From a virus, in IMG/VR virus record IMGVR_UViG_3300011115_000265, positions 1 through 50,776 of that record: a stretch of 50,776 nt of DNA, one strand, 5' to 3'. The position numbers and the translations under genes are program-made. Below are positions 1,390 to 50,776 of the stretch, in pieces; position 1 is the stretch's first letter; every line of letters starts with the position of its first letter. Under the pieces are notes generated by a model, which saw nothing but the letters and a program-made list of their open reading frames with translations, had not been told where the DNA came from and did no database searches.

Positions 1390-1711
1390 ACTTTGGTCCT
1401 TTCTTTTTATTTTCAAAACGTGTACTAAGTTGTTTACTCTTACGTATAATATTAATATACTTAAGATCAGTTGGATTAAGTTCAGAATTAATCTGTATTA
1501 CTTTGACATAGGATGCATAAACATTCCATCCATGCCCTTCTTTGGCTAGCCCTTCACAGGTATGCCCATCTACATAGTTGTCCCAATCTATATCAATAAC
1601 CATTACAGATCCTGTAGTCCAAGTATTAACAACGGTACCTTCATACCCTGTTTTAATTTTATCATTATTACCTGTGTATATTACTCTATCTCCAACATTA
1701 ATATGATTCAT
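1379..1711 (-). CDS. Small beta-barrel (SH3/KOW-like) protein, cassette A
   Basis: The 110 residues begin with NVGDRVIYTG...GYEGTVVNTW, a pattern typical of SH3- or KOW-like barrels, and end in a basic helix-like tail KYINIIRKSKQLSTRFENKKKGPKYAF. Similar barrel-plus-basic-tail proteins occur at 47065-47346, 47336-47662, 47652-47951 and 44520-44864. It lies between the amidotransferase and the ATP-grasp genes. The last codons overlap the ATP-grasp start. Function unknown; it could be an adaptor or a substrate of the ligases. Confidence 0.7.
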   Translation of the reverse strand: MNHINVGDRVIYTGNNDKIKTGYEGTVVNTWTTGSVMVIDIDWDNYVDGHTCEGLAKEGHGWNVYASYVKVIQINSELNPTDLKYINIIRKSKQLSTRFENKKKGPKYAF

Positions 1712-7544: not shown

Positions 7545-7678
7545 TGGCTAAAGGTTTATATGCAAATATTAATGCTAGGAAGAAACAAGGTACTAACAGA
7601 CCTAAAAGTAAATCTACAATTACTTCTAAGGCCTATGCAAATATGGAAAAAGGCTTTCCTAAGAAGGGTAAGAAATAA
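7544..7678 (+). CDS. Small basic phage protein, MAKGLYANI family
   Basis: A 44-residue ORF begins MAKGLYANINARKKQG and ends FPKKGKK. Proteins starting MAKGLYANI are common beside terminase genes of tailed phages; their function is not known. TAATG overlaps at both ends show a tightly coupled operon. Confidence 0.75.
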   Translation: MAKGLYANINARKKQGTNRPKSKSTITSKAYANMEKGFPKKGKK

Positions 7679-7938
7679 TGGCAACTAAAAAAAAGGGCGT
7701 AAGCCTTGCAGTAGGTCGTGGTGAGAAACTTTCAACTAAAGCTGGTGCTGGTTTAACAGCTAAAGGCCGTGCTAAGTACAATGCAGCTACTGGTTCTCAT
7801 TTAAAAGCACCACAACCTGAAGGTGGTCCACGTAAAAAGTCTTTCTGTGCTCGTATGTCTGGTATGCCAGGCCCTATGAAAGATGAAAAAGGTCGTCCTA
7901 CACGCAAAGCTGCCTCTCTTAAACGTTGGAAATGCTAA
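7678..7938 (+). CDS. Small basic phage protein, DUF6321-like
   Basis: The 86 residues contain GLTAKGRAKYNAATGSHLKAP and FCARMSGMPG, ending in a basic LKRWKC. This resembles a widespread family of small basic phage proteins (I recall it as DUF6321) found beside packaging genes. The role is unknown; nucleic-acid binding is plausible. Confidence 0.7.
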   Translation: MATKKKGVSLAVGRGEKLSTKAGAGLTAKGRAKYNAATGSHLKAPQPEGGPRKKSFCARMSGMPGPMKDEKGRPTRKAASLKRWKC

Positions 7939-8207: not shown

Positions 8208-8290
8208 ACCCAGCTGGTAGGTCGTCAGCTTGGGTCTTGGTTAGGGCTAGGATGGCCGTCCGAAAAGAGAGATCCTCCTCTCCTGCCCTA
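8208..8290 (+). ncRNA. Candidate structured RNA before terL
   Basis: A hairpin ACCCAGCT/AGCTTGGGT (one bulged T, 8208-8235) is followed by a three-way junction: TAGGGC (8242-8247) pairs with GCCCTA (8285-8290), enclosing GGAT/GTCC (8250-8261, one G-U) and GAGAG/CTCTC (8267-8282). The G-U pair favours the plus strand. The T-rich TTAGTTTTTC after it could also make it a weak terminator. It fills the 110-bp gap before the large terminase gene. Confidence 0.45.
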
Positions 8291-8312
8291 TTAGTTTTTC
8301 AGAAAGTAGTAG

Positions 8313-9824
8313 ATGAAATTAACGTCTGACATGGTATTAGGATTTTCTGGCTCCTGTCTAGCTAAAGAATATGATGGTACAACACCAACACCTAAGTGTC
8401 ATCAAGAGTGGTGGGACTTATGTTGTAGTGATGATTCTTTAGTTGCTATAGCCGCTCCTCGTGGGCATGGCAAGTCGACTGCAATCACTCATGCTTATAC
8501 ATTAGCTGCAGTTCTCTTTAGAGAAAGAAAGTTTGTAGTATTAGTTTCAGATACAGAGTCACAAGCACAGAACTTCTTGAATGATATCAAGAGAGAACTG
8601 ATGAATAATGATGACTTGATTGATTTGTTTGGTGTTAAAGGTTTTATTAAAGATTCACAAACCGATATTATTGTCGAGTTTGAAGATGGTGAACAGTTTC
8701 GTATTATAGTCCGTGGTGCAGAGCAACGTGTCCGTGGTCTTAAGTGGAACTCTAAACGTCCTGATCTAATTGTATGTGATGACCTTGAGGGTGATGAACA
8801 GGTACAATCAAAAGATCGACGTGAAAAGCTACACAAATGGTTTTATGCTGCATTATTACCTTGCCGTTCTAAAGAAGGTATTGTACGTGTTGTAGGTACT
8901 GTAATGCATTTGGATAGTTTACTTAATAAATTAATGCCACCAGACTATGATGGTGATTACATTAAAGTAGAACCTTTAAAAACATATTCAACACGTAAAC
9001 GTGTAGAGTGGAGATCAGTTCGATATAGAGCTCACTCAGAAGACTTTGCTAATATTCTTTGGGATACTAGGTATACTGCAGAAGATTATAGGGTTAAAAA
9101 AGAATCCTACCTTAAGCAAGGTATCCCAGAAGTTTATTCACAAGAGTTTTTAAACTACCCAGTTGATGAGGGTACTGCTTATTTTAAGCGTCCTGACTTT
9201 ATTGAGATACCTAGGTACACACTTGAAGCTATTAGACATAAAGAAAAGAAACTTACTTACTACGCTGCTGTGGACTTTGCAATCAGTACCAGAGAACGTA
9301 GTGATTATACTGTCATTGCTATTGGTGGTATTGACTCAGATGGCATAATGAATATTATTGACATTCGTAGAGGTCGTTGGGATGCTCTTGAGATTGTTGA
9401 TGAGATGTTTGCAGTACAAAAGAAATATGATCCTCATTACTTTGTAACTGAAAAAGGTGCCATTGAAAAAGCTATTGGTGCTATTTTACGTAGAGAACAA
9501 ATTAGTAGAAGTACTTATATGAGTCTTTTACCTATGACTCCTACAAAAGATAAGCAGTCTCGAGCAAGAAGCTTTCAAGCTCGTTTTAGAGCTGGTGGTG
9601 TTAAGTTTGATAAGAGTGCTCCGTGGTATAATGAACTAGAAGAAGAAATGGTTCGTTTCCCTAAAGCTAGGCATGATGACCAAGTAGATGCTTTAAGTTG
9701 GTTAGGTTTGGTAGTAGATCAAGTGCAAGAAGCTAGTACTCCTGAAGAGGATGAAGAACTAGAGTATCAGAAGTCTATGTCACAACAACAAAATGATGGT
9801 CGATCTGCAATTACAGGATATTAA
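8313..9824 (+). CDS. terL: Terminase large subunit
   Basis: The 503-residue packaging motor has an ATPase domain with Walker A APRGHGKST (48-56) and Walker B LIVCDDLE (152-159), then an RNase H-like nuclease domain with AAVDFAISTRERSDY, a central FVTEKGAIEKAIG and the late acidic site RHDDQVDAL. It translocates DNA into the procapsid and cuts concatemers. The ribosome site is weak (AGAAAG). The length is typical of podovirus large terminases. Confidence 0.93.
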   Translation: MKLTSDMVLGFSGSCLAKEYDGTTPTPKCHQEWWDLCCSDDSLVAIAAPRGHGKSTAITHAYTLAAVLFRERKFVVLVSDTESQAQNFLNDIKRELMNNDDLIDLFGVKGFIKDSQTDIIVEFEDGEQFRIIVRGAEQRVRGLKWNSKRPDLIVCDDLEGDEQVQSKDRREKLHKWFYAALLPCRSKEGIVRVVGTVMHLDSLLNKLMPPDYDGDYIKVEPLKTYSTRKRVEWRSVRYRAHSEDFANILWDTRYTAEDYRVKKESYLKQGIPEVYSQEFLNYPVDEGTAYFKRPDFIEIPRYTLEAIRHKEKKLTYYAAVDFAISTRERSDYTVIAIGGIDSDGIMNIIDIRRGRWDALEIVDEMFAVQKKYDPHYFVTEKGAIEKAIGAILRREQISRSTYMSLLPMTPTKDKQSRARSFQARFRAGGVKFDKSAPWYNELEEEMVRFPKARHDDQVDALSWLGLVVDQVQEASTPEEDEELEYQKSMSQQQNDGRSAITGY

Positions 9825-9827
9825 TAA

Positions 9828-11903
9828 ATGCAACTAGATGTAAAATTAAATTTAAATAAAATGCTGGTAGCTTCTAATATTGCTGATATGTTAGATGAAC
9901 AGTGTCTTACAACTATTGGCTCTCATGTAGTCAATGAGTTTGAATTAGATAAAGAATCTAGAAGTACTTGGGAAAAACGAGTAGAGTCAGCTATGATGCT
10001 AGCTTTACAAGTTGCAGAAACAAAATCTTTCCCTTGGCAAGGCGCTTCTAATATTAAGTTTCCCTTAGTAACTATTGCCGCTTTACAGTTCCATAGTCGT
10101 GCATATCCAGCATTAATTCCTAGTTCAGATTTAGTTAAGATGAATATGGATTATGCTGATGATACTCCACCAGAACAGTTTGAATCTAACAAACGTGTTG
10201 AAAAACATATGTCTTTCCAGCTTCTTAAAGAAGATGAAAACTGGGAAGCAGAGATGGATAAGGTTCTTATTTCAGTACCTATTGTAGGTTGTGCTTTTAA
10301 GAAAACATATTGGGACTTTAATGAGAATCATCCAGTATCTGAGAATGTTTTAGCTAAAGACTTTGTAGTTTCCTATTGGACTAAAAATCTTAAAGATTGT
10401 CCTCGTCAGTCTCATGTAATCTATTTGAATTCTAATGATGTAATCTCACGTCAACGTCGTGGTATTTGGTGTGACTTTGATCTTAATCCAGCACAACAAC
10501 TTCCTCAAGATGGTCTAACTATTGCAAGTAATAAAGCTCAGGGTGTAGAACAACCTCAGCAAGATCCATCAACTCCTTATGAGTTTATTGAACAGCATCG
10601 TTGGGAAGACTTAGATGGTGATGGTTTTAAAGAGCCATACATTGTAACAGTACATAGAAGTACTGGTAAAGTTGTTCGTATTGTAGCTAACTACTTTGAG
10701 TCTTCAATTAAACGAAACTCTAAAAATCAAATTATTAGTATTAAACCTGAGAGTTACTTTACTAAGTACTCATTCATTCCTTCACCAGACGGTGGTTTTT
10801 ATGACATTGGTTTTGGTATTCTATTAGGACCTCTAAATGAATCTATCAATACTATTATTAACCAACTTGTGGATGCTGGTACTATGGCAAACACTGCGGG
10901 TGGTTTCCTTAGCCGAGGTATCAAAATCCGTGGTGGTAACTACAACTTTGCACCGTTAGAGTGGAAGCATGTAGATTCTACTGGTGAAGATCTAGCTAAA
11001 GGTATTTACCCATTACCAGTTCGTGAACCTAGTCAAGTACTATTTACATTATTAACTACCTTAGTTAACTATGGTGAACGTATTGTAGGCTCTACAGATA
11101 TTATGGTAGGTGAAAATGTAGGTCAAAATACACCAGCTACTACAGCTACAAATATGATTGACCAGGGTATGAAGGTTTTTGCTGGTATTTTTAAACGTAC
11201 ATACCGAGCATTAAATGATGAACTTAAAAAAGTATATCGTTTAAATCAGTTATATTTACCAGATTCATATAAGTTTTCTACAGGTGTAGTTCAATCATCT
11301 GACTATCAACAATCTGCTGATATGTTACGCCCTGCAGCAGACCCACATGTAGTTTCTGATACACAACGAATTCAGCAAGCCCAAGCTTTAGTACAAGCTT
11401 CAAGCACTGCTCCAGGATTTGATCAATACCAAGTAATGAAACGTTATTTAGAAGCGTTGAAAGTACCTAATATTGATCAAGTATTGCCTAATCCGAAAGG
11501 TCCTAATGCTATCCAGCAAGGTCCAGATATTAAAATTCAGATTGAGCAAATGAAGTCGCAAGAACGTCAATTGTCATTACAAGTTAAGATGAAACTTGGT
11601 ATTATGAAGTTGACACAAGAGGCAGAACTAAATAGAGCGAAGATAATGCAACTACAAGCAGATGCAATTAAACTGCTTGAAGAAGCAGGTGGAGAAAAAG
11701 AGTACCAAAAAATTGCACTACTTAATGCAAAGATTGGTGCTGCTAAAGCACACGAAGATAGTGTCTTACGTTCTATTGAGCTAATGCAAAAAGCAACGAG
11801 TGAACTAGGAGATGTAGAGTATGGTGCTGACGCAACAAGAGTACTTGGATTGGGTGGAACATCCAGCGACCAAGGCCCTCAAGAAAGCCCTCAACAAGGA
11901 TAG
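9828..11903 (+). CDS. Portal (head-tail connector) protein
   Basis: The 691-residue protein follows terL after 3 nt. It has the segment WQGASNIKFPLVTIAALQFHSRAYPAL seen in podovirus portals, a central region with FGILLGPLNESINTIINQLVDAG, and a long helical C-terminus rich in Gln and Lys (QEAELNRAKIMQLQADAIKLLEE) as expected for the barrel. It forms the dodecameric ring through which DNA passes. The last 83 nt overlap the next gene. Confidence 0.88.
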   Translation: MQLDVKLNLNKMLVASNIADMLDEQCLTTIGSHVVNEFELDKESRSTWEKRVESAMMLALQVAETKSFPWQGASNIKFPLVTIAALQFHSRAYPALIPSSDLVKMNMDYADDTPPEQFESNKRVEKHMSFQLLKEDENWEAEMDKVLISVPIVGCAFKKTYWDFNENHPVSENVLAKDFVVSYWTKNLKDCPRQSHVIYLNSNDVISRQRRGIWCDFDLNPAQQLPQDGLTIASNKAQGVEQPQQDPSTPYEFIEQHRWEDLDGDGFKEPYIVTVHRSTGKVVRIVANYFESSIKRNSKNQIISIKPESYFTKYSFIPSPDGGFYDIGFGILLGPLNESINTIINQLVDAGTMANTAGGFLSRGIKIRGGNYNFAPLEWKHVDSTGEDLAKGIYPLPVREPSQVLFTLLTTLVNYGERIVGSTDIMVGENVGQNTPATTATNMIDQGMKVFAGIFKRTYRALNDELKKVYRLNQLYLPDSYKFSTGVVQSSDYQQSADMLRPAADPHVVSDTQRIQQAQALVQASSTAPGFDQYQVMKRYLEALKVPNIDQVLPNPKGPNAIQQGPDIKIQIEQMKSQERQLSLQVKMKLGIMKLTQEAELNRAKIMQLQADAIKLLEEAGGEKEYQKIALLNAKIGAAKAHEDSVLRSIELMQKATSELGDVEYGADATRVLGLGGTSSDQGPQESPQQG

Positions 11904-31453: not shown

Positions 31454-32046
31454 TGGCTGTTCAATTACCTCCAATACCCAATAACCCAGTCACAGATACT
31501 TTTGTATGGCGTGATTGGTTTTTTAAAGTTAGTCAATTACTTGTTCAACAAGCTGGTATTTCTTGGACTAGTCTTGACTTTACTGGGTCTAATTTACTTA
31601 ATATTCAGACTAGACAGCATAATGCTTTACAATCTGTTCAGGGTGGTAACTCAGGTCAGTATTATCATTTAAGTCAAGCACAGTATAATACAGTAGCTAC
31701 GCTTCCTACTTTTGGAACTATGGCTACTCAAAATGCTAATAATGTAGCTATTACTGGTGGTACTATTCCTAATACAGTTATTACTGGTTTAGGTACAATG
31801 TCTACTCAAAGTACTACATCTTATGCTACAAAAGGAACAGATACAGTCTATGCTTATAGGGCTAATAATTTATCTGACTTAGCTAGTGCAGCTACTGCTA
31901 GAACTAATTTAGGATTAGGTACTATAGCTACTCAGAATACTGGATTAAGTGTTACTATTAATACTGCTAAGTTAACAACTGGTGGTGCTAATGGTAGTAT
32001 GACTTTTACTAATGGTATTTTAACTTCTCAAACACAGGCTACATAA
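31453..32046 (+). CDS. Fibre-like virion protein
   Basis: The 197 residues begin PPIPNNPVTDTFVWRDWFFKVSQLL, then NALQSVQGGNSGQYYHLSQAQYNTVA, a phrase typical of phage tail fibres, and repeated GTMATQ/GTMSTQ/GTIATQ segments. It lies directly upstream of the endolysin and overlaps it by 1 nt. Confidence 0.65.
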   Translation: MAVQLPPIPNNPVTDTFVWRDWFFKVSQLLVQQAGISWTSLDFTGSNLLNIQTRQHNALQSVQGGNSGQYYHLSQAQYNTVATLPTFGTMATQNANNVAITGGTIPNTVITGLGTMSTQSTTSYATKGTDTVYAYRANNLSDLASAATARTNLGLGTIATQNTGLSVTINTAKLTTGGANGSMTFTNGILTSQTQAT

Positions 32047-32459
32047 TGATTAACTCAAGAGACTTAAAAGACTTACATCCTAAAGTAACTGCTTTAGCTA
32101 ATGAATTTATTAACCGTTGTAAAGCTAAAGGTATTGATGTACTTATTACTTCTACTTATAGAGATGCTGCAAGTCAAAATGCTTTATATGCTCAAGGTAG
32201 AACTTTGCCTGGAAAAAAGGTAACTAATGCATCGGCAGGCAAAAGCTTTCATAATTATAAGGTTGCGTTTGATTTTGTTCCATTAGTTAATGGTAAAGCT
32301 ATGTGGAGTGATACTGCTTTATTTACACAGTGTGGTGAGATTGCAGAACAAGTTGGACTTGAATGGGCAGGTAGGTGGGTTAAGTTTAAAGAGTTAGCTC
32401 ATTGTCAGTATACTGGTGGTTTAACATTAGCAGACTTTCAAGCAGGTAAAACAATTTAA
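32046..32459 (+). CDS. Endolysin, M15-type peptidase
   Basis: The 137-residue enzyme has the M15 (L-alanyl-D-glutamate or D-Ala-D-Ala peptidase) arrangement: SFHNYKVAFDF supplies the zinc His and Asp and FKELAHCQ the last His. It should cut peptidoglycan peptides at lysis. No signal peptide, so it needs the holin at 21916. It is the last gene of the rightward block. Confidence 0.88.
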   Translation: MINSRDLKDLHPKVTALANEFINRCKAKGIDVLITSTYRDAASQNALYAQGRTLPGKKVTNASAGKSFHNYKVAFDFVPLVNGKAMWSDTALFTQCGEIAEQVGLEWAGRWVKFKELAHCQYTGGLTLADFQAGKTI

Positions 32460-32470
32460 TGATTTTACCG

Positions 32471-32499
32471 ATGACAGATTACTTGACTTATGGTATAAT
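32471..32499 (+). promoter_or_regulatory. Extended -10 promoter of pqqA copy 1
   Basis: ATGACA (32471-32476) is 17 bp from TATAAT (32494-32499), which is preceded by TGG as in extended -10 promoters. The -10 context CTTATGGTATAATATAT is repeated before the second pqqA. A 5' hairpin TAGTAC/GTACTA (32507-32524) sits at the predicted transcript start. Confidence 0.8.
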
Positions 32500-32543
32500 A
32501 TATGCATAGTACAAATTCGTACTACTTATTTAGGAGTTTTACC

Positions 32544-32615
32544 ATGTGGACTAAACCAGCAGCTACAGAAATGCGTTTTGGCTTTGAAGTTACTATGTAT
32601 ATTATGAACAAATAG
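32544..32615 (+). CDS. pqqA: PqqA-like PQQ precursor peptide, copy 1
   Basis: The 23-residue peptide begins MWTKPAATEMRFG and ends in FEVTMY plus IMNK. It shows the PqqA pattern: MW-KP start, basic-hydrophobic middle, and Glu15-x-x-x-Tyr19, the two residues that PqqE cross-links to make PQQ. An AGGAG site lies 8 nt upstream. It is a complete single-gene unit with its own promoter, 5' hairpin and terminator. It sits between the endolysin and the convergent replication block. No pqqB-E gene is in the window, so host enzymes must process it. Recruitment of the peptide for another purpose is possible. Confidence 0.85.
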   Translation: MWTKPAATEMRFGFEVTMYIMNK

Positions 32616-32671
32616 GGTCAAATCGTCATAGAGATATCTACAAGGCTCTACAGCGAGTTTTAGATAAAAAG

Positions 32672-32700
32672 AAAGGCCACGATATTCAGTGGCCTTTTTT
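32672..32700 (+). terminator. Terminator after pqqA copy 1, probably bidirectional
   Basis: The perfect 9-bp stem AAAGGCCAC/GTGGCCTTT with an 8-nt loop is followed by TTT on the plus strand and by CTTTTT on the minus strand. It separates the rightward block from the leftward block. Confidence 0.9.
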
Positions 32701-32735
32701 ATTGCGTTACACGCTTACTGTGTACGTTGATTTTC

Positions 32736-33637: not shown

Positions 33638-35524
33638 TTATCCTACTAGTCCAACAATTTCGCAAGAACCAGATGTACAACTTAATTCCTGGGTTCCTGT
33701 TGTAGTATCTTCCTCCTCTTTAAAGTTTGACCAGTCAACATCAGGGAAATTCTTAACAGCTTCGTTATAAACTTCCTCTGTTACTTCTTGATAAGGTGCT
33801 TGTTTATATACATGATCAGAATGTGGTAGTAAGGATACACCTGACACATCGCTGAAGTTATTATAAATCCAAGCTCCTACATTCATGAACTCGTTATCTG
33901 TATAGTAAACAGTGATTGACGGATTATGCTCTGTCCAATGCTTCTGATATACACTATATAGTTTAAGTTGTTCTAAGGCATTTGTTTCATTACGAGTTAC
34001 ACCTGATTGGCTTCCTTGTTGCGGGAAACTAAAGATTGTAATGTCGTTTGGTTTTGTAACGTCTGGTTCATTTGGAACCCCTGCATCTTTAAAGAACTTT
34101 GTAATTGGATCTTTGTTATCCATTCGTACAGTTCTAATGTAATGTTTAGAGTAAGCAGGATGAATGCCAGAACTGCAACCAACCAACTGACTAACAGTCC
34201 CTGAAGGCTTAACAGTAGTGATAGCGACAGACTCAGGTATGCCGAGTACAGCAGCCCACTTTTTATTAACTTCAATTGCATATTCTCGTAGCTCCGTTAA
34301 CCATTTAATACATTCTTCAGTAGGTTTACTTAGGATAGGATGATCCATAATACCTGTCATACTTACACCTAATAACCGTTCTTCCTCTTGATTCTTTTTC
34401 CACTCAGCTCTTAAGTATCTAAAGTTTGTAAGGGTGGATTGAAATGTCCCGATAATTGTTGCGACTTCAATCTTTTCCTTAAGGTCAGCAAGGGTATCTT
34501 TCTCTCGGATGACAACTTCACTGAGATTACACACTCCCTTAGATCGCAGGATAATTTCTCCGCAAGGGTTTGTGCCGTAGTCGTAACCATCAACATCTCG
34601 TCTTCCGTTAGAGGCTGCTTTCTTTGTAGCTGCAACTCTATTAAATATTCCTCGTTCACCGTTCTTTGACTCATACAATGTACCCCACTCTTTTAAGAAA
34701 ATACCAACATCAGGTTTCTCAGTGTAAGCAACAGAGTTATTAGCTAAAGCTCGTTGAACATTACCTTCCCACCAAGCACCGTTCTTAGCATTACGCATAC
34801 GGTCATCAGTAAGATTAGATAAGCTAATTAGAGCAGATCTACGAACACCTCCGACAATAACAATGTCAGCTACTTTACATACAATATCATGACATTCCAA
34901 TGAGTTTAGTTTTCGTCCTGCAGCTCGTTTGAAAGTATGGATTGTAAATTCAAACAAGTCTTCAAGAGGTTTTGGACCGCTTGCTCTACCACCGAAAGTC
35001 CTGAGTCTAGCTCCAGCAGGTCGCACTCCTGAGGTATCCCATTTTGGAATTCTCCCTGAATATAGGAGGCTAATGAGTTCCCTATAAGCAGATGCCCAAC
35101 CAATTCTTGAATCTTTAACTCTAATAGATGTGTCTGTATCATGGAATTCCTCAGCAACTACTGGTAACATGTTTGTAAACTGTCGTTCTACTGAGAACCC
35201 TACACCTGTACCACACATTAAAACATACATTACTTCATCAAATGCTTTAGGGTTATCAATAGCAATAAAACTACAATTGTAACCTGCAATCTCATCACGA
35301 TCTAAAGCTTGTCCTGCTGTCATTAAACAACGCATACTAGGCATTACATCTAGTTCACGGATTGCTTTATTAACTTTCTCTTCAGGGAAGCTATCAAAGC
35401 GACCTTTAAAGAATCCTGTATAACGACTTACTGTTTCTTCCCATGTCTCACGTCGAGACTCACTAGGAACCCATCGTGCATAACGGCTTGCATGTATAAA
35501 TCTTTGGTAATCTGTTAAAGCCAT
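33638..35524 (-). CDS. Adenosylcobalamin-dependent (class II) ribonucleotide reductase
   Basis: The 628-residue protein matches monomeric B12-dependent triphosphate reductases: GYNCSF with the first redox Cys, CGTGVGFSVE, VRRSALISLS, TNPCGEI with the radical Cys and Glu, CNLSEVV, KPSGTVSQL, and the C-terminal CTSGSC pair that re-reduces the site. It makes dNTP for phage replication and works with or without oxygen but needs host B12. It overlaps the upstream gene (TAATG). Confidence 0.93.
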   Translation of the reverse strand: MALTDYQRFIHASRYARWVPSESRRETWEETVSRYTGFFKGRFDSFPEEKVNKAIRELDVMPSMRCLMTAGQALDRDEIAGYNCSFIAIDNPKAFDEVMYVLMCGTGVGFSVERQFTNMLPVVAEEFHDTDTSIRVKDSRIGWASAYRELISLLYSGRIPKWDTSGVRPAGARLRTFGGRASGPKPLEDLFEFTIHTFKRAAGRKLNSLECHDIVCKVADIVIVGGVRRSALISLSNLTDDRMRNAKNGAWWEGNVQRALANNSVAYTEKPDVGIFLKEWGTLYESKNGERGIFNRVAATKKAASNGRRDVDGYDYGTNPCGEIILRSKGVCNLSEVVIREKDTLADLKEKIEVATIIGTFQSTLTNFRYLRAEWKKNQEEERLLGVSMTGIMDHPILSKPTEECIKWLTELREYAIEVNKKWAAVLGIPESVAITTVKPSGTVSQLVGCSSGIHPAYSKHYIRTVRMDNKDPITKFFKDAGVPNEPDVTKPNDITIFSFPQQGSQSGVTRNETNALEQLKLYSVYQKHWTEHNPSITVYYTDNEFMNVGAWIYNNFSDVSGVSLLPHSDHVYKQAPYQEVTEEVYNEAVKNFPDVDWSNFKEEEDTTTGTQELSCTSGSCEIVGLVG

Positions 35525-35697
35525 TAATCTTCCTCATCTGTTGTTAGTTCATTATTAAAGTATTCGTATTTATCTTCAATACGATCAAAGAAAGCCTCTA
35601 CTAGATCATAAGAATCAATGTTCAGAATCTCTAGTAGAGTTACTTCATCATACTGTTCTGCTAGTTTTTTAGTTATTTCCTGCAGAGTTAGTGTCAT
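35524..35697 (-). CDS. Small acidic protein upstream of the reductase
   Basis: The 57-residue ORF (MTLTLQEITKKLAEQYDEVTLLEILNIDSYDLVEAFFDRIEDKY...) is a helical acidic protein with the EVTLLEIL..DLVEAF..RIEDK pattern of short proteins common in phage nucleotide and replication operons. Its stop overlaps the reductase start, so they are coupled. Function unknown. Confidence 0.7.
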   Translation of the reverse strand: MTLTLQEITKKLAEQYDEVTLLEILNIDSYDLVEAFFDRIEDKYEYFNNELTTDEED

Positions 35698-36190
35698 TCC
35701 ATGCTTCCTTATCCCACTTAATAATAGCGTTAATTTGTGTTCTTAAGCCATTACAGATTTCATCACTCTTTATTTTGTTTTCGAAGATGTCGTCGATAGT
35801 AATGGTACTGAGTCCACTGGTGGTTTCAATAGTTCCTGTGGAATCCTTGGGCAACTCAGTAAAGAGACCTTTGTTTGATTCATTCCACAACCTGATACCA
35901 TCAGCAGTAATATTACAGTTACTAGTATATATTTTAACACGTTTAAGTTTCCTTGTCAACTGATTATAGTAATTTGTTTGATTACTTAAGGCTGTTTGAT
36001 ACTCTTTGATTTCATTACGTGATTTGACATCATTATTCCTAATCGTAGTAAGTAACGAGTCATACTTTTTAACTTCATCCGCTTTATCGAACTGACCTTT
36101 AACATAGTAACCTCCTGTAAAACTACCAATCACCATCGCTGAGATCAGAACCCACTTGTAAGGGTTGAGCATTGTCAATAGATTCTCCAT
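35669..36190 (-). CDS. Probable inner-membrane spanin (Rz-like)
   Basis: The 173 residues begin with one membrane helix (YKWVLISAMVIGSFTGGYYV), then a charged coiled-coil periplasmic part (VKSRNEIKEYQTALSNQTNYYNQLTRKLKRV) and RLWNESNKG, as in Rz-type i-spanins. I chose MENLL at 36190 for its GGAGG site. No matching Rz1 lipoprotein was identified. It lies far from the other lysis genes. Confidence 0.65.
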   Translation of the reverse strand: MENLLTMLNPYKWVLISAMVIGSFTGGYYVKGQFDKADEVKKYDSLLTTIRNNDVKSRNEIKEYQTALSNQTNYYNQLTRKLKRVKIYTSNCNITADGIRLWNESNKGLFTELPKDSTGTIETTSGLSTITIDDIFENKIKSDEICNGLRTQINAIIKWDKEAWNDTNSAGNN

Positions 36191-41744: not shown

Positions 41745-41932
41745 TTAGTTGCTCTCCATACGTCCCATTTAGTCCAGACATCTCCGAGTTCATTAAATGT
41801 TTTCTTAGCTATACCATATGGTGGTGTAACAGTTGCCCATACTTTGCTGTTTCGTATTAAATACTGAGCACCAATTTCTATGAGAGGTTTGTTACGTAGT
41901 TCATGTTCATATGGTAGTTCGTTAAGTATCAT
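41741..41932 (-). CDS. Hypothetical replication-operon protein (63 aa)
   Basis: MILNELPYEHELRNKPLIEIGAQYLIRNSK continues with TVTPPYGIAKKTFNELGDVWTKWDVWRATK. It overlaps the helicase stop by 1 nt and the next gene by 4 nt. No family is recognised. Confidence 0.6.
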   Translation of the reverse strand: MILNELPYEHELRNKPLIEIGAQYLIRNSKVWATVTPPYGIAKKTFNELGDVWTKWDVWRATK

Positions 41933-43173
41933 TAAATATCCTCATACCTTGCAATCTCTGGTTTGATTAATACTTGAACAGAACCATGTCGTAAGTCTGG
42001 CATAGTATCTGCATCTCCAATTAGTTTGTTCTTAACAATGTTAAAGAATCTACTACGTGATGTGTTATCTTGTTCTTTACCAATGCCTAGAATCCAGTCA
42101 GCTTCACCTTGCTTTGCTGTCTTTGAACCATCTACCATGTCCATTGTAAGATAGAGTTTACCTTCTGCCTCACCACTTGCTTGCGAAACAGCAATGACAG
42201 GTGCATATGTTTTAGCAACTTCACGGGCCCACTGGTAGATTGCTTTGAGTTCCAAATCATTACGGTCTCCTTTAAACCCTTTAATCTTATCTATCTGATC
42301 AAAGATAATTAATGCAGGGTTACTGTTTTTAAGAATATTTTCAATCTTAGTTTTTGTATTTGAATCTTCAAAGTCTAGGATCTTAATACGGTTACCAGTT
42401 GCATGTACATATTCACGTTGACGTCGCTCCCTGTTATCAAATAGAAACTCTTGGGGTAAACCAAGTGCTGCTTGATAGCAGCGAATAGCTACTTTGTTAC
42501 CTTGTTCCTCATTGTTAAACCAAAGTACTTCTCCCTGAGTCTGAGAGACCATGTGAGTAATTTCCGACGCCAGAAAAGTAGTCTTACCTGTTTCTGGTCT
42601 GGCGAATATAAAGCCAAAGTCCCCTTTGCGCAAAGATCCAAGAGCCTGATTAAGCCAGTTAACACGCCAGCGTAGACCAGGAGTAGCAACTTGAGAATCG
42701 TAAAGTTTTTCCAAATCCATTTCAATAGGCTTAGGTTCATCTAATGCAATCTCCTGTTGTTCAAACTTGTTTAGTAAGTCTAACAAGTCTTGGACTGGTT
42801 TCTTACCAGTCTCTACATCCAATGATACCAATGCTACCTCGCCTGCAATGGCTCGGTGACGATGCTCATCTAGTAACCCGACTAACGCATCACGATTGGT
42901 AATGTCTTGGTTAAACACATCTTCTAACAGTACTTTAAGTTCTTTCCTTTCTTGTTCTTTTAACATGTATTCAGTATTATAAAAAATATCTAAATCATTT
43001 ATATTAATATTATTATTTATATTATATTTAATATAATAATTATTAATACTATTAAATATTTTATATATATTATTATAATTAGTTTTAATATAATTAATAT
43101 TAACATATTTATAATATTTTGTAAAGAGTTCTTTATCTTCACAGAAGAGTTTTATAATTTGTTTCTCAACCAT
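41932..43173 (-). CDS. DnaB-like replicative helicase
   Basis: The 413 residues hold a RecA-type motor: Walker A ARPETGKTT (191-199), LWFNNEEQG, Walker B ALIIFDQIDKIKG, VIAVSQASGEAEG and MVDGSKTAKQGEADWILGIG. It unwinds DNA ahead of the split polymerase. Residues 18-66 are a low-complexity run of Asn, Ile, Tyr and Lys encoded by almost pure A/T DNA. It overlaps the primase end by 22 nt. Confidence 0.9.
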   Translation of the reverse strand: MVEKQIIKLFCEDKELFTKYYKYVNINYIKTNYNNIYKIFNSINNYYIKYNINNNININDLDIFYNTEYMLKEQERKELKVLLEDVFNQDITNRDALVGLLDEHRHRAIAGEVALVSLDVETGKKPVQDLLDLLNKFEQQEIALDEPKPIEMDLEKLYDSQVATPGLRWRVNWLNQALGSLRKGDFGFIFARPETGKTTFLASEITHMVSQTQGEVLWFNNEEQGNKVAIRCYQAALGLPQEFLFDNRERRQREYVHATGNRIKILDFEDSNTKTKIENILKNSNPALIIFDQIDKIKGFKGDRNDLELKAIYQWAREVAKTYAPVIAVSQASGEAEGKLYLTMDMVDGSKTAKQGEADWILGIGKEQDNTSRSRFFNIVKNKLIGDADTMPDLRHGSVQVLIKPEIARYEDI

Positions 43174-44961: not shown

Positions 44962-45294
44962 CTACCTTTGCCATTGATGAGGGTGGGTGTAGAGTTTCCA
45001 TTTATCTTCATCATATTTTTCTTGGTTATATTCATCTTTATCAACATCTATCCACCCATAACCATTAGGGTGTTTTACAAAATACACAGGTTCTTGGTAG
45101 TATTCTTTCTCGGTTATAGATTGCATTTCATCTAACCATTCCAACTCAATGCCTTGCGCTGGCTGTTCGAGGGCTTCTTTACAGGCTTGGATTGTTTCAT
45201 GGGTATAAATAATTATACCTTCAACTGTTTCTGCACCATTGCATAACTCTAAATCGTCAATCGCCATCTTTAATGCTTCGTCTTTATTATTCAT
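44962..45294 (-). CDS. DEALKMAI-family small protein (110 aa)
   Basis: MNNKDEALKMAIDDLELC, then ACKEALEQPAQGIELEWLDEM and a GYGWIDVDKDEYNQEKYDEDKW end. From ALEQPAQ on it is identical to the gene cut off at the window start, for 127 nt exactly as far as that gene is visible. It lies between the tiny Trp-rich ORF and pqqA copy 2. Confidence 0.75.
   Translation of the reverse strand: MNNKDEALKMAIDDLELCNGAETVEGIIIYTHETIQACKEALEQPAQGIELEWLDEMQSITEKEYYQEPVYFVKHPNGYGWIDVDKDEYNQEKYDEDKWKLYTHPHQWQR
45036..45162. repeat. Exact 127-bp repeat, copy 2
   Basis: It is identical to bases 1-127 and stops matching at 45163. It codes for the conserved half of the 110-residue gene. Linking 45035 to base 1 keeps the reading frame, as expected if the left end of the window belongs here in one haplotype. 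Confidence 0.95.
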
Positions 45295-45305
45295 GATTTT
45301 CTCTA

Positions 45306-45334
45306 TTTACTTTTATATAATCTTATGGTATAAT
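45306..45334 (+). promoter_or_regulatory. Extended -10 promoter of pqqA copy 2
   Basis: TTTACT (45306-45311), 17 bp and TATAAT (45329-45334) preceded by TGG. The surrounding CTTATGGTATAATATAT is the same as at copy 1. A perfect hairpin ATATACT/AGTATAT (45341-45360, 6-nt loop) stands at the predicted start of transcription. Confidence 0.8.
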
Positions 45335-45379
45335 ATATACATATACTAATAAAAGTATATATAACTTTAAGGAAATATT

Positions 45380-45451
45380 ATGTGGACAAAACCATCAGCA
45401 ACTGAAATGCGTTTCGGCTTTGAAGTAACAATGTATGTAATGAATAAGTAA
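45380..45451 (+). CDS. pqqA: PqqA-like PQQ precursor peptide, copy 2
   Basis: The 23 residues begin MWTKPSATEMRFG and end FEVTMY plus VMNK; Glu15 and Tyr19 are kept. It differs from copy 1 by two conservative changes (Ala6Ser, Ile20Val) although 12 of 72 bases differ. AAGGA lies 7 nt upstream. It reads rightward inside a block of leftward genes, ending one base before the stop of the convergent zinc-ribbon gene, so it looks like an inserted moron. No terminator is visible, so its transcript could run antisense into 45452 and beyond. Confidence 0.85.
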   Translation: MWTKPSATEMRFGFEVTMYVMNK

Positions 45452-45652
45452 TTAGTCTTCAGTCCATTCACTGTAGTCAAGTTCACTATCAGAGATTGAT
45501 TCTTTTGTCAATAGATCTTCACGATCAGTAGATAGAAGTTCATCTTTGATAGTGCCATAGCAATGATTACACATGTCAATATAATTACCATGTAAATCTT
45601 TACGTGTTGATTCGTAGTCACTAAGTTCTACATTACAAGCAAGACATCTCAT
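45452..45652 (-). CDS. Zinc-ribbon small protein with acidic tail, copy 2
   Basis: MRCLACNVELSDYESTRKDLHG, CNHCY and an acidic end. Same plan as 44313-44507, with diverged tail. The stop abuts the stop of pqqA copy 2. Confidence 0.7.
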   Translation of the reverse strand: MRCLACNVELSDYESTRKDLHGNYIDMCNHCYGTIKDELLSTDREDLLTKESISDSELDYSEWTED

Positions 45653-45819
45653 TGTTTAATCCAATCCTTATTATCCCAGTATTCATCACAAGTATTATCT
45701 GATTTTAAGGGAACTTCTGCAAAGAAAGACTGTCGATATTCATTAGATATTGCAGTAAATCTATAGCATGTTTCTTTATTAGGACAGTTAGTACCTTTAC
45801 ATTTAGTTATATCAGCCAT
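45649..45819 (-). CDS. Small Cys-containing phage protein (56 aa)
   Basis: MADITKCKGTNCPNKETCYRF continues EYRQSFF...CDEYWDNKDW. The CxGxxCPxKxxCYR pattern followed by a late Cys is a common small phage protein, probably zinc-binding. AAAGGA precedes the ATG. It overlaps its neighbours by 4 and 8 nt. Confidence 0.75.
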   Translation of the reverse strand: MADITKCKGTNCPNKETCYRFTAISNEYRQSFFAEVPLKSDNTCDEYWDNKDWIKQ

Positions 45820-46306
45820 GATTCTTTTCCTTTAATGCTTGTTCAATAGCACGAGCAAATTTAGTAGCCAGTTCTTCAACATAATAATCACCAAGCGTTA
45901 CATCATCAATTGCTCTTATCTCATCATCACTTAATCCTTGCCATGATGGTGCAGGGTGGGTGTAGAGTGGAGTTTTATGTGGAATATTTTTAACTACCAT
46001 CTGCCCTATATACCCATCTTGCATTGAATAAACTATTGCCACAGGTTCTTGTTCTGGCTGTTCTGCTTCCCATCCTTCACATTCACAAACATACCTTCCT
46101 GCACTATGGCTTGCATCTCTACAAAATCCATGTGGCGCATCAGGATGATTGCTACATTCAGGCTCTTGTGCTGGCTGTTCTAATGCTTTTTTACAGGCTG
46201 GTATTGCATCTTTTACTAACAAATAATAAGTTGGTTGTACTAAATCTTCATCTATACATTCCAACGCTTTAATCGCCATTTTTAATGCTTCAGTTTGTTT
46301 GTTCAT
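45812..46306 (-). CDS. DEALKMAI-type small protein (164 aa)
   Basis: It starts TEALKMAIKALECIDEDL, has a Cys/His-rich middle (CSNHPDAPHGFCRDASHSAGRYVCECEG) and ends PSWQGLSDDEI...FARAIEQALKEKN like the 134-residue cassette A protein at 240-644. It follows the ATP-grasp gene of cassette B in the same way. Confidence 0.7.
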   Translation of the reverse strand: MNKQTEALKMAIKALECIDEDLVQPTYYLLVKDAIPACKKALEQPAQEPECSNHPDAPHGFCRDASHSAGRYVCECEGWEAEQPEQEPVAIVYSMQDGYIGQMVVKNIPHKTPLYTHPAPSWQGLSDDEIRAIDDVTLGDYYVEELATKFARAIEQALKEKNHG

Positions 46307-47081
46307 TTAAGTATTCCTTGAATGCATTTACATATTTATCAAGAGTAGTACCAAATAAACCTGGTGCAGTATTAACTTCAAATAAGAAAGCTTTATCATC
46401 ACGTTCTCTATACCCAATATCACATGCACCAAAGTCTAACCCTAATATTGTAACAGCTTTTACTGCCGCTGTCAAGACACAATCAGGGGGAGTAACATCA
46501 CATCGAGCATAGATCCAGCCATTAGAATGGTTGCGAATACCAGTGCTAGGCCCAGAGTATCCAAGTTTACGTTTCTTTTGTTGAACATCAATTACATTTC
46601 CTTTAAATACATGAATACGATATTCATGTTTATGTTTAGTACCAAGAGTATACAGAGGTGCTTCTACTAATTCATAAGTGTTTTTAGCAATTACTATACC
46701 AGAACCAGAGTGCCCTGTCAAGGAAGTTCGGCAATAGATAGCTTCTTTACCGAGGGTTTCACCACCATTGGTTGCAGTATAAAGTAATGTAGAAGCTTGG
46801 TACCTAGATGTACACCACTCAGGTAAGTATTCAAAACCTGCAGCTTGCAATGTCTCAAATGTTTTAAGTTTGTTACATGCTAATGCAATAGCTGTATGGC
46901 TATTAAGATCATGAAGAGCAGGAAGAATAGCGCTTGGACGAGAATTACCCCAGTTAATAATGATATCACGTCTACGTGCATCATATGTAGAACGTACACG
47001 TTTGACTCCTAGACTACTAGCCAAAGACTTAGCAGAGAGTGAGCCTAGCTTATATGGAAATACTTTAAAACGATAAGTCAT
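46290..47081 (-). CDS. ATP-grasp ligase, cassette B
   Basis: The 263 residues from MTYRFKVFPYK carry YCRTSLTGHSGSGIVI, EYRIHVFKGNVIDVQQKK and FEVNTAPGLFGTTLDKY as in the cassette A copy, with an insert near 100-110 (ATNGGETLGKEA). It keeps all visible ATP- and metal-binding blocks, so both copies look active. Its start overlaps the preceding barrel-protein gene by 17 nt. Confidence 0.85.
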   Translation of the reverse strand: MTYRFKVFPYKLGSLSAKSLASSLGVKRVRSTYDARRRDIIINWGNSRPSAILPALHDLNSHTAIALACNKLKTFETLQAAGFEYLPEWCTSRYQASTLLYTATNGGETLGKEAIYCRTSLTGHSGSGIVIAKNTYELVEAPLYTLGTKHKHEYRIHVFKGNVIDVQQKKRKLGYSGPSTGIRNHSNGWIYARCDVTPPDCVLTAAVKAVTILGLDFGACDIGYRERDDKAFLFEVNTAPGLFGTTLDKYVNAFKEYLNEQTN

Positions 47082-47346
47082 TATCCAATCCTTTATGTCT
47101 GTTAGTAAATTTAGTATTTAATTGTACCACTTTTCTACAAACTAAAACTTTATTTTTATCATGCAAATTACCAGTGAATAGCTCTAAGTGTTTCTTTTCT
47201 ACCCACCAAGAAGGTTCATCTAAATACAATGATTCTTTATCAACTCTAATAACAGTATAGATATCATTAAGTTTAAGTTTATGGTTGTGTTCCCCATCAA
47301 AACAAGGTGATACATATATAACAAGATCTCCCACTTTATATTGCAT
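47065..47346 (-). CDS. Barrel-plus-basic-tail protein, cassette B (93 aa)
   Basis: MQYKVGDLVIYVSP and DIYTVIRVDKESLYL give an SH3-like barrel; LVCRKVVQLNTKFTNRHKG is the basic tail. It is the nearest neighbour of the ATP-grasp gene, in the place of the cassette A protein at 1379-1711. Starts and stops of the chain overlap. Confidence 0.65.
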   Translation of the reverse strand: MQYKVGDLVIYVSPCFDGEHNHKLKLNDIYTVIRVDKESLYLDEPSWWVEKKHLELFTGNLHDKNKVLVCRKVVQLNTKFTNRHKGLDNDLSF

Positions 47347-47662
47347 AACCTTTTACCTTTCGTTTAGCTTGCATTTTATTTATCTTTTCACATACCTTTT
47401 TATATTTGGTATTAGGATCTAATAAAGTAGTAGCAGGTTTATGAAGTTTAACTTCATGACCCCGAACATTCCATTGATTAGGCCCTGCAGTATCTCTATA
47501 GGTACCTTCACCTGGATACTCCCATTGAATCTCATAGATAGCAGTTACAGCATCACTCCATCTATGAGTAATAGTACCTATATTGTTTTTACCTACCTTT
47601 GATATACAATTGCTAGATACAGGTGTAACTAAGTCACCAATTTCTAATACTTCAAAAGTCAT
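47336..47662 (-). CDS. Barrel-plus-basic-tail protein, cassette B (108 aa)
   Basis: The start MTFEVLEIGDLVTPV is used because AAGGAG lies 7 nt upstream; a TTG two codons earlier is less likely. NQWNVRGHEVKLHKP matches the GHGWNVYASYVKVIQ segment of the cassette A protein and the tail is KYKKVCEKINKMQAKRKVKGYAI. Confidence 0.65.
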   Translation of the reverse strand: MTFEVLEIGDLVTPVSSNCISKVGKNNIGTITHRWSDAVTAIYEIQWEYPGEGTYRDTAGPNQWNVRGHEVKLHKPATTLLDPNTKYKKVCEKINKMQAKRKVKGYAI

Positions 47663-47951
47663 AGCCAAGCTCCTTACGTTTTTGATATAGTTGTTGAACC
47701 TTAAGATTAACTTTAAAATTCTTAGGCATCTCTTTAAGATTTAAACTTCCTACTTTACTAAACAATTCTGCCATGTCATTACTAATATACAAGTCATGAA
47801 AGGCTTCATAAGTTCCATCATCTTTTACATGATTTAGATTTAAAATAGAAAAACCTTTAGGCTTTTTATAAATACTATTTACAACATACTTATTAAAATT
47901 TCCTAAAGCATCTTTATAACTAATAAGATCATAGAGTTGAAAAGCATTCAT
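47652..47951 (-). CDS. Barrel-plus-basic-tail protein, cassette B (99 aa)
   Basis: MNAFQLYDLISYKDALGNF and the tail NFKVNLKVQQLYQKRKELGYDF. The ATG at 47951 has GGGGAG upstream and follows the amidotransferase stop by one base; the longer frame from 48038 overlaps that gene and is rejected. Confidence 0.65.
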   Translation of the reverse strand: MNAFQLYDLISYKDALGNFNKYVVNSIYKKPKGFSILNLNHVKDDGTYEAFHDLYISNDMAELFSKVGSLNLKEMPKNFKVNLKVQQLYQKRKELGYDF

Positions 47952-47952
47952 A

Positions 47953-48876
47953 CTAAACTCCCCAGAAATCTGCCGTTGTTCGTTCCCAATATTCTGAATT
48001 GGTTTCCATGCGAGGCTTGATATCATAAGCTTCATCATAGAAATCTAACTTAGCAAACGGTACGTTGTATGCAAAGGCATCATCCTCATCGCTCATTAAG
48101 TCAGCAGTATAGTTAGAGTTGACAGCAACTACTTCGAAGATTCTACCACGTTTGTATAAAGTCTTGGTTTCTTTTTCCCAATGTGCAGTAATCAAGCGAA
48201 CTAACTCACCTTCTTTAACTACCATGTTAGCATGGACTTTAGTTGGTGGTGGTAAAGCAGGAGCTTTTGGTGCATTATCTACATATCCACCATACTTATA
48301 GTAAGAACTAATTGGTGGAATAGTACGACTAACTACAGGACTAGGCTTATAACTAGAGTTAGAATACCATACTTCATCATCCCAAACACCTTTGTTTTCG
48401 TTGAAGATCTCGTGTTTTCCCTGACGATCTAAGAAGATAAGCTTGGAATAACCAATGCGTTCTTCGATAAGATGTTTGATAGCAGGCTCAAACAAAGATA
48501 GATTACCCCACTTACTTACTAAAGGTTTAAGAATTAGATTATTAAAGTCACGAGTATCAGAGATGTCACCTTCACCATATCCAGAGATAACACCATTGTG
48601 TACAAAGCCTAAGCTATTAGTAATCTCAAATGGATGACAGTTATCTACACTAATAGAACCGTGAGTCTTGATACGGAAATGAATAACACATTTCTTAAGC
48701 TCATGTTGTTGGTATGCTTGCCAGAAATCATCGAACTTAAAGAAACCTTTTTGTACTTTAAGTTGTTTGTTATCTACATACATAAACCCAGCACCATCAG
48801 GATTAGAGTTGAAGCATTGAAGTAAACGATCTTTAGAGATAGTTAAGTTTTTATCTTTCCAAATAGCGATGCACAT
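47953..48876 (-). CDS. Class II glutamine amidotransferase, cassette B
   Basis: The 307 residues start MCIAIWK with Cys2 as nucleophile, then HFRIKTHG, NCHPF, FVHNGVISGYG and SDTRDF. A Pro-rich linker (about 180-220) leads to a C-terminal barrel-like domain (EGELVRLITAHWE...IFEVVAVNSNYTADLM). It supplies ammonia and is a full-length paralogue of the protein at 1698-2573. Confidence 0.9.
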   Translation of the reverse strand: MCIAIWKDKNLTISKDRLLQCFNSNPDGAGFMYVDNKQLKVQKGFFKFDDFWQAYQQHELKKCVIHFRIKTHGSISVDNCHPFEITNSLGFVHNGVISGYGEGDISDTRDFNNLILKPLVSKWGNLSLFEPAIKHLIEERIGYSKLIFLDRQGKHEIFNENKGVWDDEVWYSNSSYKPSPVVSRTIPPISSYYKYGGYVDNAPKAPALPPPTKVHANMVVKEGELVRLITAHWEKETKTLYKRGRIFEVVAVNSNYTADLMSDEDDAFAYNVPFAKLDFYDEAYDIKPRMETNSEYWERTTADFWGV

Positions 48877-48877
48877 A

Positions 48878-50395
48878 TTAGTTGTATCCTTTCAATTTAG
48901 CTACTAATTCTGGGTAATCTTTACGACGAGGCATAACCCATGACATAAAGGTAGTATGATTTGTTTGAAGCTTAAGACTTGCACCACATTGTGCAGGTTT
49001 AGCATAGTCAACAAGAGCTTGACAGAACTGAACCTTATGTGCAAAGTCTTCATAAGATAATGGAGAACTAAAGACACGGAACTCAATCGTTGCGTCATTC
49101 TGTAAGTTTAATGAATTGTAACGATCACCACGTTGATTTGTCCAAGGGAAAGTAACTGTACGACCCCTACTTAAAGCACAGTAGTGATTAATCTTACGAC
49201 CTGCAATGAACTCAATAAACTTACGATTCTCTTCCCTGTTCATGAACTCTGTCAACTTACCTACTGTAAGGACAGATAAAGGTTTGCGAGATACATGCAC
49301 ATGCATACCTGTGTTAGCTTTAGCTTCTAATTCTTCTGGACGATTGTCAAAGAATTTCTTGAAGACTTCTAACTGAATATCCATAGTAGCAGGACATGTA
49401 ACAATCTCGAAGCCATGACTAATAGAACCATCTGATTTCATAATAGCATGGCCATTAAGAGCACGACCAACTTTCATACGAGCTGAGTCATAGTCAGTAG
49501 TTTCATACTCAAGTTCACATCCTAAGTACAATGTATTAGGTGTAACTTTCTTAGCTTTGAACTTAAGTAAATTAGGAACACGAGTGCTATAACTATGAAC
49601 TTTGTAAGCAGCACTTGAACAGATAGTACAATGAGTTGTAAATGAATCAATAGCACCTACTGGAACATCGTCACGACCACAACTTGGGCATGTACATACA
49701 CCAGCAGAACGAGGAAACACTTGACGATTGAATACAACATCATCATCTGTATGCCAAATGTTACCATCACTATGTCTTATGTAGCCATGATCTGCAAGAC
49801 TAACACCATTTGTAATATAGTAAAATGTATTTCTAATATTTACTTTTTGAAATGCACCACCTAAAAGATATTGACCTGTCAAACAACATACTTTGAAACG
49901 TCGAGATAACTTTGATGGTAGATTATCATTAATCCATTTGTAATGTTCTAGAGTACCAACTTCATGACCTGATAATCTAATAGCATCTTCTAGTATTTCT
50001 TTATGAATTTCTTCTAGAAGATACTCAGTAACTTTAATTCTGTATATTCCAGAATCATTTAATCGTTTGTATAATGTTTCGTAGTGATGTCTAAAGATAC
50101 GACCACGACGATTTTTTAGTGTATCTGGAGGTGTGATTAGATAATATAAACTATCTAAGAGACCATTAATATTTCTACAATTAATATCTAGAGCAAGTAG
50201 AGCATCATGATTTACATCTTCAGTAAAATACTGCCAGCTATTGTAGTATACAATACTAAATAATAATGTATCATTTTGATAGAAAGAATGCTTTTTACCT
50301 CTACCATTGTTTTCTGATTTTACAGAGATACCCAAAGAATTTTCTTTGAATGTAAACCCATCTGCTGCAAATTTCTTCATGTCATACAATTTCAT
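48878..50395 (-). CDS. Amidoligase with Zn ribbon, cassette B
   Basis: The 505 residues have a diverged N-terminal half, a CTCPSCG...CTIC ribbon (Cys236, 239, 256, 259) and the catalytic series GCELEYE (292-298), KSDGSI (320-325), FEIVT, GMHVHVSR (363-370) and TIEFRVF. The C-terminal domain is closely related to cassette A, whereas the N-terminal half is not, which suggests a changed target. AAGGAG precedes the ATG. Confidence 0.88.
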   Translation of the reverse strand: MKLYDMKKFAADGFTFKENSLGISVKSENNGRGKKHSFYQNDTLLFSIVYYNSWQYFTEDVNHDALLALDINCRNINGLLDSLYYLITPPDTLKNRRGRIFRHHYETLYKRLNDSGIYRIKVTEYLLEEIHKEILEDAIRLSGHEVGTLEHYKWINDNLPSKLSRRFKVCCLTGQYLLGGAFQKVNIRNTFYYITNGVSLADHGYIRHSDGNIWHTDDDVVFNRQVFPRSAGVCTCPSCGRDDVPVGAIDSFTTHCTICSSAAYKVHSYSTRVPNLLKFKAKKVTPNTLYLGCELEYETTDYDSARMKVGRALNGHAIMKSDGSISHGFEIVTCPATMDIQLEVFKKFFDNRPEELEAKANTGMHVHVSRKPLSVLTVGKLTEFMNREENRKFIEFIAGRKINHYCALSRGRTVTFPWTNQRGDRYNSLNLQNDATIEFRVFSSPLSYEDFAHKVQFCQALVDYAKPAQCGASLKLQTNHTTFMSWVMPRRKDYPELVAKLKGYN

Positions 50396-50567
50396 TGTAA
50401 TTACTCCTTAGTTTAGATTTATAACTACGCTTCAAACTCCAAATAGTTTTTACTAAATTTGGTTTACTAAATTCAGCTTTTCTATTTGGAAACTTTTCAT
50501 ACACTTTAAAGTACCAGAAACAGAACTCTTCATTAAGTGTATCATAATTCAATTTAGAGATACTCAT
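50382..50567 (-). CDS. Small protein paired with cassette B (61 aa)
   Basis: From MSISKLNYDTLNEEFCFWYFKVYEKFPNRK; basic C-terminus. Resembles 4549-4740 in spacing of aromatic residues. The ATG overlaps the stop of the upstream ORF (ATGA) and the end overlaps the amidoligase by 14 nt. Confidence 0.6.
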   Translation of the reverse strand: MSISKLNYDTLNEEFCFWYFKVYEKFPNRKAEFSKPNLVKTIWSLKRSYKSKLRSNYNEIV

Positions 50568-50674
50568 GGTGATTTCCAAATATCTTCTAGTGTCCAATAT
50601 ATAAATACTACAGGAACCCATAATGGACTAGTTATTAATATTAAGCATAACTTTTGTTTATTAGAGAACTTCAT
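50564..50674 (-). CDS. Tiny membrane protein upstream of cassette B (36 aa)
   Basis: MKFSNKQKLCLILITSPLWV continues as one hydrophobic helix, then WTLEDIWKSP. GGAAAG lies 7 nt upstream. The frame stays open to the end of the window without a usual start, so a longer protein beginning outside cannot be excluded. The rest of the right end (50690-50776) shows only a short CCAGGTT direct repeat. Confidence 0.5.
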   Translation of the reverse strand: MKFSNKQKLCLILITSPLWVPVVFIYWTLEDIWKSP

Positions 50675-50776
50675 TATAAGACTTTCCATATATTTGATTG
50701 AGGTATGACCGACCTTACCCAGGTTTACCAGGTTATTTACGACCAGCCATTTCGTTTTATATACACAAATGCTACT

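Follow-up and report, generated by a model that had tools for sequence, protein, structure and literature searches.

The window, meaning the whole stretch of DNA analyzed here, is a viral record with a length of 50,776 bases. It is a tailed phage, encoding a major head protein, a head closure protein, a DnaB-like helicase and a DNA polymerase in addition to the terminase and portal protein given below. An ORF of 23 codons with a TAG stop lies on the plus strand at exactly the position given by the initial annotation, which had read it as a free-standing gene for the PQQ precursor peptide PqqA. A second pqqA copy, overlooked by the initial annotation, was found when the window was searched with the Pfam profile PF08042. 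The features of the two loci and the viral hallmark genes are as follows.

8313–9824, plus strand: terminase large subunit, viral hallmark
9828–11903, plus strand: portal protein, viral hallmark
32046–32459, plus strand: endolysin, the final late gene ahead of pqqA copy 1
32471–32499, plus strand: predicted promoter of the sigma70 type (ATGACA-N17-TATAAT, extended TG) that agrees with the consensus at 11 of 12 bases
32507–32524, plus strand: predicted 5'-leader stem-loop TAGTAC-AAATTC-GTACTA, between promoter and ribosome binding site
32532–32536, plus strand: putative ribosome binding site AGGAG
32544–32615, plus strand: pqqA copy 1, encoding MWTKPAATEMRFGFEVTMYIMNK (translation; PF08042 and TIGR02107 matches)
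32666–32703, both strands: predicted terminator hairpin, its stem palindromic, with T runs on either strand
33638–35524, minus strand: B12-type ribonucleotide reductase, in the convergent operon beyond copy 1
45306–45334, plus strand: predicted promoter of copy 2, TTTACT-N17-TATAAT plus extended TG, sharing a 22-nt sequence with the copy 1 promoter
45341–45360, plus strand: predicted 5'-leader stem-loop ATATACT-AATAAA-AGTATAT of copy 2, with a near-identical leader in contig L018
45380–45451, plus strand: pqqA copy 2, encoding MWTKPSATEMRFGFEVTMYVMNK (PF08042 match), in the contig tail

The peptide of copy 1 matched all 19 positions of PF08042 (E 6.4e-11, 42.4 bits, cut-off 21.1) and scored 40.4 bits against the NCBIfam equivalog TIGR02107 (cut-off 20), and thus lies above both curated cut-offs in the family profile search that the initial annotation had proposed as a check. 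Glu15 and Tyr19, the PqqA pair with three residues in between, are both present as claimed. Linkage to pqqBCDE, which is usual for PqqA and not a condition of membership, is absent for the window gene. The PF08042 search gave zero matches in 14 control genomes, and PHROGs contain no family matching the copy 1 peptide. On its sequence, the ORF at 32544–32615 encodes a true PqqA.

A promoter, an AGGAG site and a terminator of its own had also been claimed for copy 1, and all of them are supported by the elements listed above. A 22-nt core around the -10 element, CTTATGGTATAATATATnCATA at 32487–32508, occurs in the window only before copies 1 and 2, and the relatives G061–G063 have a similar promoter in the same place as that of copy 1. 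A hairpin was present at this leader position in nearly all of 19 leaders of the window lineage; its arms differ yet remain complementary, and MAFFT alignment did not bring the hairpins into register. The leader hairpin may have a role in mRNA stability. An Rfam search recognized no known RNA upstream of pqqA; its only match in the window was an int-alpA RNA at 8240–8306 (40.3 bits, cut-off 35.8), directly 5' of the terminase gene, although no tyrosine integrase was found in the window. Among 116 phage pqqA upstream regions, 96% contained GGAG, AGGA or GAGG, and TATAAT was present within 70 bases upstream of 35% of the copies against 11% in shuffles, compared with 1% against 9% in shuffles for host pqqA. 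Terminator-like hairpins followed 44 of the 116 phage copies (shuffled: 2) and 69 of 86 host copies (shuffled: 0).

Contig structure and host

Positions 1–127 of the window are repeated exactly at 45036–45162, and the tail past this repeat carries a cassette with the same gene order as the left end at 42–66% protein identity. In the nearest relative, G061 (81–93% DNA identity), the left cassette is joined straight to the region of approximately 44.9 kb. From the repeat, the diverged tail cassette and the G061 junction, the contig is probably a 45.0-kb circular genome followed by a 5.6-kb alternative allele (45163–50776) from a co-occurring strain, and copy 2 probably sits on this allele, joined on by the assembler. 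The possibility that one genome holds two copies was weakened by the same repeat and junction, and by the finding that none of 30 sampled relatives of the window lineage had two pqqA copies in one record. Relatives had pqqA in one of two places. In G061, G062, G063 and window copy 1, it separates the late genes from ribonucleotide reductase; in G069, L018 and window copy 2, it sits next to the primase gene on the strand opposite to the early genes, and in G069 its neighbors are primase and an ATP-grasp-like gene. Both cassette versions (634–4147 and 46290–50395) encode a class-II glutamine amidotransferase and an amidoligase, of which MEP402 has homologues, along with a protein that looks ATP-grasp-like but is not matched by Pfam; together they may form a system that modifies peptides or surfaces.

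The replication proteins of the window are 44–67% identical to those of the OM43 phage MEP402. The PqqA type MWT-P-ATEMRFGFEVTMY(V/I) retrieved bacterial records titled with Methylophilaceae or Methylophilales genera, together with some metagenome bins titled only Betaproteobacteria, Nitrosomonadales, proteobacterium or Pseudomonadota. The replication proteins and the PqqA sequence type therefore indicate that the host most likely belongs to the Methylophilaceae.

Distribution of pqqA among viruses

The peptide was searched by tblastn against public phage genomes, and nine named Methylophilales or Methylophilaceae phage genomes matched (Venkman, P19250A, MEP301, MEP401, MEP402 and four Melnitz genomes), as did one spring-water podovirus genome. 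MW202796, a spring-water genome near the window by its polymerase and head-closure proteins, was not among these matches. The Venkman, P19250A, MEP301 and MEP402 records leave the matching position unannotated, and Melnitz and the spring-water podovirus genome have an opposite-strand ORF annotated there; gene callers probably drop ORFs of 23 codons, which would explain the missing annotation. A degenerate pattern retrieved at least 120 IMG/VR contigs, and all 120 among the matches listed encode PqqA-like peptides. In these 120 loci, no PqqB, PqqC, PqqD or PqqE was found next to pqqA, which also speaks against bacterial contamination of the IMG/VR set.

The initial annotation had named absence from related phages as evidence that would count against its reading. 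Relatives were selected by their DNA polymerase or terminase, hence blind to pqqA, and among records of 20 kb or more the gene was present above the PqqA cut-off in 22 of 30 in the window lineage, 5 of 6 in the Venkman lineage, 7 of 20 in the P19250A lineage and 7 of 17 in the MEP301 lineage. Many records are partial, and a missing gene in such a record is no proof of loss. The pqqA-carrying lineages share few genes, and Melnitz belongs to the T4-like Kyanoviridae. The gene lies among phage genes, has a host homologue and is under purifying selection, in line with the criteria for an auxiliary metabolic gene. Supplying host methanol oxidation thus looks like a common viral strategy and not one genome's curiosity.

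A minority of viral contigs (L012, L020, L025, L031, L032, L035, L085 and others) have other PqqA types, which suggests that the gene is also carried by phages infecting other PQQ producers. Two records named Acinetobacter phage MD-2021a (CAKLQF020000010.1 and CAKLQH020000055.1) also matched pqqA; the former was excluded because it holds a bacterial ppk beside pqqABCDE and looks like mislabelled host DNA.

Selection on the peptide and host gene dosage

Copies 1 and 2 of the window differ at 9 of approximately 12.5 synonymous sites and at 2 of 56.5 nonsynonymous sites (Fisher p approximately 6e-7). Since the search pattern biases the pN/pS of the 120-contig set low, a set of 15 distinct ORFs retrieved independently of any DNA pattern was preferred; its pN/pS was 0.07, and third positions made up 17 of its 26 variable columns. 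Every copy read retains Glu15 and Tyr19, whether it was retrieved by pattern or by profile. Copy 1 had a best identity of approximately 92% to fetched host pqqA genes, and three phage PqqA peptides were letter-for-letter the same as host peptides.

These results bear on two alternatives. The gene might be a neutral passenger picked up by chance from the multi-copy host genes, as its small size, its abundance in hosts and its patchy presence in phages would allow; synonymous divergence with a conserved protein, phage-specific promoters with leader hairpins and recurrence in several lineages make this highly improbable. The second is that the locus is an attachment-site remnant of a phage that integrates into host pqqA and carries the sequence restoring the gene. 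Host pqqA copies are many and scattered, and the attP of a phage commonly duplicates the terminal part of a host gene, but the window gene is complete with its own promoter, it shares no identical core with the host genes, and no tyrosine integrase was found in the window or in 16 pqqA-bearing records (serine recombinases were outside this search). The attachment-site reading was rejected as extremely improbable.

The claim of a free-standing gene agreed with the wider data. Neither PqqE nor a PQQ alcohol dehydrogenase was found when the window was searched for them, and PqqE was above the cut-off in none of 50 pqqA-bearing viral records. A PQQ alcohol dehydrogenase was present in one of the 50, a 72-kb record (IMGVR_UViG_3300025120_009955) with a PQQ methanol/alcohol dehydrogenase at 34049–35731 and pqqA at 41887–41943, which resembles the Lake Baikal methylophages. 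A substrate carried without its enzymes, under a strong promoter that would suit titration, could be a decoy that occupies PqqD/PqqE and shuts off host PQQ synthesis. A decoy should lose or alter the two residues that are joined, but Glu15 and Tyr19 are retained throughout; moreover, the three peptides identical to host peptides do not fit an inhibitor, and some phages, including those of PMC7678222, pair methanol dehydrogenase with pqqA, which points to support of the host pathway. We regard the decoy as very unlikely.

By the same profile searches, all of 16 Methylophilaceae genomes contained 2–12 pqqA genes each, and PqqE above the cut-off was single in 15 of them and present twice in one. 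These counts agree with the published 3–12 pqqA genes against mostly single pqqBCDE (PMC4109929). PqqA availability has been reported as rate-determining for PQQ in Methylovorus MP688, in work cited by a 2024 paper (PMC11317620). Because pqqA genes are many, pqqE genes are few and PqqA can be rate-determining, peptide supply is a sensible control point. The orphan pqqA genes of Methylophilaceae (PMC4109929) resemble the phage copies in peptide type, in being mostly unlinked to pqqE and in their downstream hairpins; unlike the phage copies, they are chromosomal and have no TATAAT enrichment upstream.

Proposed role in PQQ supply

Considering the purifying selection, the recurrence, the host gene dosage and the literature on limiting PqqA, precursor supply is the best-supported mechanism, and we consider it likely that phage pqqA supplies PQQ precursor so that host methanol oxidation continues during infection. 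The promoter, 5' stem-loop, ribosome binding site, 23-aa ORF and terminator would form a self-contained unit on the phage genome that yields the peptide during infection. Host PqqD/PqqE, PqqB and PqqC would turn this peptide into additional PQQ, and the periplasmic PQQ-dependent methanol dehydrogenases would stay loaded and go on giving energy and carbon, to the presumed benefit of the phage. The phage would thus bring just the substrate that is consumed stoichiometrically and use the reusable enzymes of the host. The initial annotation had proposed precursor supply for methanol or sugar oxidation; the methanol part stands as the best inference, and Methylophilaceae hosts favor methanol over sugar oxidation.

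Several points temper this model. PQQ already bound in dehydrogenases may outlast infection, so that extra precursor would be unneeded. Phage pqqA is not essential, since 13 of 20 relatives in the P19250A lineage and 10 of 17 in the MEP301 lineage are without it, many of these records being partial. The operon pqqA was dispensable in Methylobacterium, where orphan copies exist, according to a paper cited in PMC11317620. Another use of PqqA or PQQ, such as lanthanide binding or uptake for XoxF or PQQ release at lysis, is improbable. PMC11317620 raises PqqA as perhaps part of an alternative lanthanide uptake system, but the idea is speculative there and the established role is cofactor supply. 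All four alternatives are less likely than precursor supply.

The initial annotation knew of no earlier description of phage pqqA, and this novelty did not hold. Coutinho et al. (2020; PMC7678222) had reported PqqA in VP_266, a Methylophilaceae phage population of Lake Baikal, and methanol dehydrogenase in both this population and VP_139, and had proposed the same interpretation, a boost of methanol oxidation; viral pqqA was also listed among phosphorus-cycle genes in 2026 (PMC13188868). VP_139/VP_266 share with the window a Methylophilaceae host, phage PqqA and the proposed boost, but they are T4-like and carry methanol dehydrogenase, which the window and nearly all sampled records do not. 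MEP401/MEP402 (Zobellviridae, PMC10580990) share the replication module described above and pqqA, unannotated in MEP402, but their structural module is barely similar (terminase 25%) and their pqqA differs in both genomic position and leader. In the Methylophilales phage papers examined, pqqA goes unmentioned, and the Melnitz paper refers to PQQ solely as an ingredient of the medium. Its spread across lineages, its occurrence as substrate alone and the conserved promoter-hairpin leader appear to be new and undescribed in the papers searched.

It is also probable, in our judgment, that pqqA recurs among methylotroph phages and has mostly been overlooked, unrelated lineages having acquired it on several occasions as a module that provides just the substrate and comes with its own promoter and a stabilizing 5' hairpin. 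The phage would thereby set host cofactor flux through dosing the ribosomal substrate alone. As with cyanophage psbA and phage pmoC, the phage would supply a component of host energy metabolism that is short-lived or limiting; those genes encode an enzyme or electron-transfer subunit, in contrast to the peptide substrate of a cofactor pathway here. Methylophilaceae (OM43, Methylopumilus) are important methanol consumers in seas and lakes, and if phages routinely supply PqqA, infected cells may go on oxidizing methanol and published phage genomes would hold an overlooked metabolic gene. Cultured pairs make the idea directly testable (Venkman-H5P1, P19250A-IMCC19250, MEP301-FZCC2181 and MEP401/402-FZCC0133).

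A further ORF of 86 aa at 7678–7938, upstream of the terminase gene, is 88–90% identical in the records G014 and G028, despite structural proteins just 25–42% alike. With homologues at 52–64% identity in Venkman, MEP301 and MEP402, it encodes a small conserved methylotroph phage protein that seems to move between lineages.
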